Positions 60,425 to 64,000 of a stretch of DNA of 64,000 nucleotides are shown here, in pieces (positions within the stretch are counted from its first letter, which is position 1; the number at the start of each line of letters is the position of its first letter). The translations under genes were made by a program, and so were the position numbers. A model generated the notes under the pieces. The model made no database searches, was not told the DNA's origin, and saw only the letters and a list, made by a program, of their open reading frames with translations. This stretch comes from Polychytrium aggregatum (taxonomy: Eukaryota > Chytridiomycota > Chytridiomycetes > Polychytriales). The stretch spans positions 18,573 to 82,572 of the forward strand of contig NW_026516366.1 of NCBI RefSeq assembly GCF_025602895.1, in the 5' to 3' direction.

Positions 60425-61164
60425 TTATTTTTCAAGGAGCTTGGCCAAGATCTCGTTATCGCGGTACAGAAGGTACTCCTCGCTGCCGAGCTTGACGGTG
60501 TTGCCGCCAAAGGGAGGAAGCAGGATGCGATCGCCCTCCTTGACAGAGCAGGGGTGGGTGACTCCGTTCTATTGGTGCAGGGTTGGAGAGATGGGTTAGA
60601 CCAGCGGTGAGAGCGTGTATCCGTGGTTCAAGCGGATCTGGGGCATGTCGCCCATGATCTGGGCCGGCCTGAATGACCCAGGGCAACGGGAACGGAGAGA
60701 GCGTACCTTGTCAGGGGCACCGGGGCCGACAGCCATGACAATGCCCTCGTTGAGGGTCTCCTGGGCCTTCTCGGGGATGAAGATACCCGAGGCAGTGCGC
60801 TCCTGGGCCTTGATGCGCTGGACCAGGACACGGTCGAGGAGAGGAATGATGCGCTTGATGGTGGACTGGTGTCAGCCGATCGGATGCCGGAGCAGATCAG
60901 ATATCGCGGAGAGGGGAGACGAAGGCAGTTGCATCGACAGATCCGTGGCAGTTGGGCGATGATGGTGATGGATCGGTTGAGAGGTGAGTTGGCCGACGGA
61001 CAATTCCACCAGGACAAGCCCGGATCGGCAAGATCGGATGGACAAGATCAGCCAGCAGTCGCGGTCGACAGAATCCGTCAGCATATGCTCGGCAAGACCA
61101 GCCAGCACACGTGCTCGGGGAACAGCGACAGGTTCGATCGGGCAGCAGCGCAGGCACTCACCAT
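60425..61164 (-). CDS. HSP10: Mitochondrial co-chaperonin HSP10 (GroES family)
   Basis: Three coding exons on the minus strand: 61162-61164 (only the ATG), 60707-60865, 60425-60568; 306 nt, 101 residues, exactly the family length. Splicing ATG|GTGAGT to CACCAG|TCC gives MSTIKRIIPLLDRVLVQRIK. Further family motifs: SGIFIPEKAQETLNEGIVMA (IF-P-K mobile-loop region), VGPGAPDKNG, VKEGDRILLPPFGGNTVKL and EYLLYRDNEILAKL. It caps the HSP60 chamber in the mitochondrial matrix. The start is fixed by the family N-terminus and the strong context gccgccATG. No other in-frame Met lies upstream. It diverges from HSP60 with 575 bp between the start codons. Confidence 0.95.
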
Positions 61165-61293
61165 GGCGGCGGATGCTGTTGGGCAGGACGATCTGGGAGA
61201 CGGCGAGACGAGCCCGATCGAAAAGCAAACCAGGCCGAAATTTATGCCAGGCGCGCAGCCCAGGCCCGCGGACAAACCCGAGTGCGGCACTGG

Positions 61294-61316
61294 TTCTGTG
61301 GGGTTCTCTGGCATTC
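61294..61316 (+). promoter_or_regulatory. Candidate step-type heat-shock element
   Basis: TTC at 61294-61296, 61304-61306 and 61314-61316: three units with a 10-bp period, the spacing described for step-type heat-shock elements bound by HSF1. A fourth TTC at 61330 is out of register. Location in a chaperonin promoter supports it, but TTC is a short word. Confidence 0.45.
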
Positions 61317-61375: not shown

Positions 61376-61438
61376 GCGAGACGCGGGCGAGACGCGGGCG
61401 AGATGCAGGGCGAGATGCAGGGCGAGACGGCACGTGCG
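61376..61438 (+). repeat. Left arm of 63-bp inverted repeat with five GCGAGAYG boxes
   Basis: Boxes GCGAGACG, GCGAGACG, GCGAGATG, GCGAGATG and GCGAGACG start at 61376, 61387, 61398, 61410 and 61422 (spacing 11, 11, 12, 12). The arm aligns without gaps to the reverse complement of 61515-61577 with 55 of 63 matches. Confidence 0.95.
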
Positions 61439-61514
61439 TCGCCAGCACGCACACACACATGCGCGCCCCACAGCGACAGTGCGCGGCCGAACAGCGCCGC
61501 GGCTGCGCATGCTG

Positions 61515-61577
61515 CGCACGAGCCGTCTCGCTCCCCATCTCGCCATCCATCTCGCCTGCGTCTCGCCCACGTCTCGC
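61515..61577 (-). repeat. Right arm of 63-bp inverted repeat
   Basis: Reverse complement of the left arm at 55 of 63 positions, no gaps. All five boxes are conserved and in mirror order, so the spacing read outwards from the centre is 12, 12, 11, 11 on both sides. The 76-nt spacer (61439-61514) is GC-rich. Confidence 0.95.
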
Positions 61578-61640
61578 GCAGCCAGCGAGACGTTTTTTCT
61601 TCCGCCCTTCCGCGGATCCATGCAAGTCGCCCAAACATAA

Positions 61641-64000
<2,360 letters not shown>

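Follow-up and report, generated by a model that had tools for sequence, protein, structure and literature searches.

A Cpn10 gene (hsp10) and a Cpn60 gene (hsp60) lie head to head within the window, by which we mean the whole 64,000-nucleotide stretch of Polychytrium aggregatum DNA analysed here (Table 1). The inferred starts are at 61164 on the minus strand and 61740 on the plus strand, and the midpoint of 61452 that the original prediction gave for the two start codons holds if the hsp10 ATG is indeed the one at 61164 that precedes the GTGAGT intron. Splice reading of hsp10 yields MSTIKRIIPLLDRVL, and its assignment to the Cpn10 family (PF00166) comes from a Pfam match on a second copy of the locus (L029). 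For the main exon of hsp60, the best solved structures were 9k47, recorded as 'glomalin', an Hsp60 that we assign to arbuscular mycorrhizal fungi, and then 8pe8, a mitochondrial Hsp60-like protein; the glomalin match makes a fungal source likely. The second copy of the region is carried by another contig, C372, which is 99.9% identical over 3772 aligned bases and may represent the other haplotype. Since the two genome copies are identical across the intergenic region, they provide no allele test. Between 60601 and 63836 the sole differences between the window and C372 are small indels near 63698 and 63791; these fall within hsp60, seem to break the reading frame and are possibly assembly errors. 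Short imperfect repeats resembling tgtgatgtcattg occupy positions 63860-63950, 3' of the hsp60 exon, and are probably intronic.

Table 1. Features of the hsp10-hsp60 locus, with positions in the window.
Feature	Position	Strand	Remarks
hsp10 start codon, inferred by splice reading	61162..61164	-	intron GTGAGT..CAG directly after the ATG; exon 2 begins STIKRIIPLLDRVL
CATAAA (TATA-like), hsp10 side	61241..61246	-	77-82 nt upstream of the hsp10 ATG
Candidate step-type heat-shock element, TTC-n7-TTC-n7-TTC	61294..61316	.	units at 61294, 61304 and 61314; the only one on either strand of the 64 kb window
Arm A of the inverted repeat	61376..61438	-	row of five phased GCGAGAYG boxes on the plus strand (CRTCTCGC on the hsp10 sense strand); inner edge GCACGTGCG
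Centre of the inverted repeat, between the arms	61439..61514	.	76 nt
Arm B of the inverted repeat	61515..61577	+	inverted copy; five boxes as CRTCTCGC on the hsp60 sense strand; inner edge CGCACGAGC
Extra GCGAGACG box outside arm B	61585..61592	+	7 nt between it and the arm; orientation opposite to the arm B boxes
CATAAA (TATA-like), hsp60 side	61636..61641	+	99-104 nt upstream of the hsp60 ATG
hsp60 exon 1	61740..61922	+	mitochondrial presequence-like start by eye; no Pfam match alone
hsp60 main exon	62513..63682 (stretch tested)	+	Cpn60_TCP1, PF00118

The intergenic region contains a long inverted repeat. Direct comparison of its two arms, each 63 nt, gave 55 of 63 identities without gaps (87% complementary), whereas the best 63-nt inverted match was 36 when the 575-bp intergenic region was shuffled 626 times with its dinucleotides preserved. 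In the 64 kb window, no further inverted pair of 40 nt or longer was found within a distance limit of 300. The genome was also queried with the whole repeat, in a search that scored only the best candidates and skipped very common words. Among these candidates, full-length matches were obtained only at the two copies of the locus (C73 and C372), where alone a near-identical mirrored pair was found, and two single-arm matches lay elsewhere. The original prediction had considered that the repeat could be a remnant of a mobile element scattered through the genome; with only two single-arm matches beyond the locus's two copies among the best candidates, this idea is unsupported.

Each arm carries five GCGAGAYG boxes, which start at 61376, 61387, 61398, 61410 and 61422 on the plus strand in arm A and at 61524, 61536, 61548, 61559 and 61570 on the minus strand in arm B. 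The spacing of 11, 11, 12 and 12 bp is mirrored between the arms, and both arms share the order C, C, T, T, C at the Y position. When the differences between the arms were sorted by class, they affected 0 of 40 box positions, 7 of 14 spacer positions and 1 of the inner 9 bp; the spacers CGG, CGG, CAGG and CAGG of one arm correspond to TGG, CAG, GATG and GGGA in the other, with identical boxes. The probability that all 8 mismatches fall outside the 40 box positions is 1.3e-4 (hypergeometric), a value on the optimistic side, since inspection of these same arms had served to define the boxes. The arms, the five boxes in each with their mirrored spacing, and the confinement of all differences to positions outside the boxes were thus as originally described. 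Exact symmetry is broken by two extra GCGAGACG boxes on the plus strand, one beside arm B (Table 1) and the other at 61203. Outside the arms, GCGAGAYG occurs 11 times in the window, while shuffled versions of the whole window contain 9.6 on average, which indicates that the motif is not generally over-frequent there.

From the axis outward, the layout towards either gene is the same: a box row, reading CRTCTCGC on the sense strand, is followed by a CATAAA sequence in the sense orientation. CATAAA occurs 10 times in the 64 kb window on both strands together, and one sense copy precedes each gene. The distances from arm to ATG are unequal, at 212 nt for hsp10 and 163 nt for hsp60.

Step-type heat-shock elements (HSEs) repeat TTC (or GAA) three times at 10-bp intervals, and HSF units need a spacing of 5 or 10 bp. 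The triplet at 61294-61316 fits this arrangement, whereas the boxes, at 11-12 bp, do not. It adjoins the mirrored arrays on the hsp10 side, lying outside them between arm A and the CATAAA sequence. A reading of the boxes as variant HSEs was rejected on the grounds that they contain GAG rather than GAA, are spaced by 11-12 bp and stand near a separate HSE-like site. Five other chaperone genes were compared, and the triplet was present upstream of three of them, L048 and L049 (mitochondrial Hsp70 and BiP by eye) and L050 (Hsp70), and absent upstream of L051 (GrpE) and L052 (Hsp110-like by eye). In a set of 268,322 bp made up of the window and the loci, with some second copies still inside, there were 6 matches to the triplet, or 4 sites once a GAAGG microsatellite was collapsed, the hsp10-hsp60 site included. 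The triplet is not raised in the background, as the reversed CTT/AAG pattern gave 9 matches and other TTC/GAA gaps (3 to 14) gave 0 to 9; its background frequency being unremarkable, the position at chaperone genes is the telling point. Judged from these sequence patterns, heat control would be explained better by the separate HSE-like element than by the box rows. Upstream of the BiP-like gene identified by eye (L049, C2:761750-762500), positions 36-64 of the reverse strand hold a 10-bp tandem of TTCTCGCCTG. In it, three TTCTCGC units 10 bp apart lie within an HSE-like triplet, so that step-type spacing is merged with the CTCGC box.

The arrangement was compared with known systems. In the available parts of two sources, mammalian HSPD1/HSPE1 (HSP60/HSP10) is described as a head-to-head pair with a short shared intergenic bidirectional promoter that contains a heat-shock element, and the conserved hsp10/hsp60 pair is placed in metazoa with no fungal example named (PMC7262932, PMC2871058). 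The P. aggregatum locus is similar in its head-to-head pair, short intergenic region and HSE, here a candidate. As far as those parts of the sources go, it differs in the element itself, which in the mammalian genes comprises at least four inverted nGAAn units and here is a one-sided step-type set of three TTC units, accompanied by mirrored box arrays. A second comparison is with the CGCG element TCTCGCGAGA of vertebrate promoters, which the part of the source available describes as bound by BANP, a protein whose BEN domain prefers TCTCG (PMC10206803). TCTCGC is common to both on that description, but the boxes here are one-orientation half-sites at helical spacing, with no full palindrome in the arms. 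The full TCTCGCGAGA palindrome occurred once in the 228,518 bp of the set examined, and a BEN domain search gave no match in the genome and was likewise silent in control genomes. Minisatellites in fungal promoters are short tandem units upstream of genes; the present array differs from them in being a mirrored inverted duplicate with fixed boxes and drifted spacers. No description of GCGAGAYG rows was found in searches of open-licence papers.

The original prediction proposed a genome search for phased arrays of the box. Across the genome, same-strand GCGAGAYG pairs at 9-38 bp numbered 333, compared with 74 for the reversed motif, and pairs at exactly 11 bp numbered 66 and 8, respectively. 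The two motifs also differ in frequency, with 36 boxes and 19 reversed motifs in 198,226 array-masked bases on both strands, from which about 32 and about 9 pairs would be expected. The excess is therefore about 10-fold for the box and about 8-fold for the control. After this frequency check the idea that clustering of the boxes is special was abandoned; clustering is mostly ordinary tandem repetition of a kind that other words of this genome show as well, and the activator-module readings set out below were judged less probable on this account. Generic 8-mers often repeat at 9-13 bp in this genome, and many GCGAGAYG rows resemble plain minisatellites of period 9-13, some of them within a repeat family. 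That dispersed family (L011, L014, L020 and L026), whose members are mostly about 88-99% alike, bears its own GCGAGATGGAT array, so some of the genome-wide box rows are copies within a repeat. At L009:4980-5060, the units of an 11-bp array shift from CTCGTCTCGCT to CTCGGCACGCT along the row.

Inverted arrangements of the box were also counted. Exact inverted box pairs with gaps of 0-30 bp were found at 6 convergent and 14 divergent places, neither above the 16.5 expected for each; 6 of the 14 divergent places belong to the two copies of the hsp10-hsp60 locus. The reversed-motif control gave 0 and 1 such places against 4.6 expected. A general tendency of exact boxes to be mirrored at short range was not found. 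Tandem pairs with an inverted box facing them across 71-101 bp were found at the hsp10-hsp60 locus, within a repeat family, and at a single further locus together with its second copy; across 1-31 bp, no such arrangement was found in the genome. A loose convergent layout may recur elsewhere in the genome: at L046:1200-1380 (C124:183200-183380), loosely mirrored GCGAG boxes are followed by CTCGC boxes. This cluster lies about 800 bp before the first recognised segment of a gene similar, by eye, to that of ribosomal protein L28.

The spacing of the boxes was assessed over distinct nearest-neighbour same-strand pairs among the matches listed (100 rows). Among these, the main list held 33 pairs at 9-13 bp, 3 at 14-20, 11 at 21-24, 0 at 25-29, 5 at 30-33 and 1 at 34-38. 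The same six bins held 1, 4, 7, 2, 0 and 1 pairs in an extension list, which comprises later contigs and lags of 13 bp and more, and 124, 126, 63, 42, 42 and 45 collapsed sites for generic 8-mer repeats in array-masked local sequence. In-phase pairs (9-13, 21-24 and 30-33 bp) outnumbered out-of-phase pairs (14-20 and 25-29 bp) by 49 to 3 among the matches listed, compared with 229 to 168 for generic repeats (Fisher 2.9e-8), the phase bins having been picked after inspection of the main list. When main and extension lists were taken together, 18 of the matches listed were at 21-24 bp and 9 at 14-20 or 25-29 bp, compared with 63 and 168 for generic repeats (9e-5). The extension list alone gave 7 and 6 pairs in these two classes and agrees only as a rate, 7 pairs being spread over 4 lags and 6 over 12. 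Two-turn pairs (21-24 bp) without a box-like middle (at most 5 of 8) made up 13 of the 18 among the matches listed, one being a 7-bp tandem. What is special about the boxes is spacing that follows the helix, not clustering. Outside arrays, phasing of the CTCGC pentamer was no stronger than that of control pentamers, and the candidate that CTCGC is a generic phased pentamer is unsupported.

The survey of arrays covered 20 loci and gave 14 non-redundant arrays outside the repeat family, with ten further regions outside this count. None of the 14 lay inside predicted coding sequence, a weak result given that only 421 of 2520 grid points are coding. Only five had a recognised coding segment no more than 600 bp downstream, belonging to genes for a secreted protein (L010, by eye), a threonyl-tRNA synthetase (L012, named by eye, with a class II synthetase core in Pfam), a dynein light chain (L013), a PKA regulatory subunit (L027) and a DFRP1/Tma46-like protein (L028, by eye, no Pfam match). 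Only the array at L027 is oriented relative to its gene as in the hsp10 and hsp60 arms; the arrays of the remaining four genes face the other way, so no fixed orientation applies. Around arrays reading GCGAGA, CTCGC was found 26 times on the 3' side (0 to +400 bp) and 8 times on the 5' side; counted by hand per locus, the bias was 9 to 1 with 4 ties, and two loci (L018 and L022) supply 13 of the 26.

Rows were also sought at other chaperone genes. None was found in the five other chaperone upstream regions, where one single box was present in L051, and two GCGAGAYG boxes within one locus were found in none of ten CCT-type loci (L030-L032, L034, L035, L037-L039, L042 and L043), some of which stop short of the promoter. 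Looser GCGAGA repeats occur at 2716, 2726 and 2746 of L039 and in its copies. A box code specific to chaperonins was rejected, given rows at many other sites and none at these five regions, and the rows beside the synthetase-type, dynein light chain and PKA regulatory subunit genes likewise leave a chaperonin-specific role unsupported. The genome search thus bore out a helix-like spacing of the same box elsewhere; some of the rows stand beside genes unrelated to heat shock.

These observations are most readily accommodated by two divergent promoters, each with a helically spaced activator module that was duplicated in inverted orientation, and with heat control exerted through a separate HSE. 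We give this reading, which is drawn from the sequence, a probability of a little over 0.4. The intergenic element would then be the shared upstream region of the two promoters, in which a separate TATA-like CATAAA would serve each gene, preceded by that gene's own row of five boxes at intervals of roughly one helical turn. It is proposed that a sequence-specific protein occupies neighbouring boxes along a single helical face and activates the adjacent promoter. The second row is probably an inverted duplicate of the first, because the two have the same spacing, the same Y pattern and the same inner edge; selection would then have kept the boxes as the spacers drifted. Heat inducibility would be supplied separately by the step-type element at 61294-61316.

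A close rival, possible although not preferred, is that an 11-12 bp minisatellite of no function was duplicated and inverted through a template switch, in which case the mirror would be an accident of replication. Short tandem repeats are common in this genome, the generic 8-mers and the reversed motif behave as described above, and many box rows look like plain minisatellites. A neutral copy, on the other hand, would not show changes at half of the spacer positions with none in the boxes, although this fixed-box evidence stands once only, at the locus that defined the box. Two-turn pairs that lack a middle box also argue against a mere minisatellite, as do the rare HSE-like and CATAAA sites that flank the arms.

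The original prediction took the repeat for a special palindromic array that provides hsp10 and hsp60 with equal factor sites for balanced co-expression. What stood of this proposal is a real mirrored array with one arm per gene, equal in box number and spacing; a chaperonin-specific or heat-shock role did not. In favour of this reading, the hsp10 and hsp60 products work together. A head-to-head hsp10/hsp60 pair with a shared promoter is moreover known in mammals, according to the part of the source available (PMC7262932). Against an array of equal sites, the boxes are not specific to chaperonin genes, the five other chaperone upstream regions lack rows, and the arms stand at unequal distances from the respective ATG. 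We consider this explanation quite unlikely. That the repeat acts as a structure, whether a cruciform or transcript hairpin controlling expression or a replication hotspot, is highly improbable: its single-stranded DNA fold of -92.9 kcal/mol is well below the shuffle mean of -54.4 (z -10.2), but any inverted repeat this long would score well, and the mispairing of 7 of 14 spacer positions between the arms indicates that pairing was not what was kept.

A broader form of the activator-module reading is that GCGAGAYG boxes one or two helical turns apart constitute a widespread, previously undescribed promoter code, read by a factor lying along one face of the DNA, and that, at the chaperonin pair, inverted duplication of one such module made a symmetric promoter serving both directions out of an enhancer that had served one. 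On the sequence patterns at hand, we regard this extension as unlikely. If true, it would provide a promoter grammar of box, helical spacing and orientation for a fungal lineage for which searches of the literature gave no promoter motifs recognised as relevant, and the hsp10-hsp60 locus would be a clear example of an inverted duplication building a symmetric divergent promoter.
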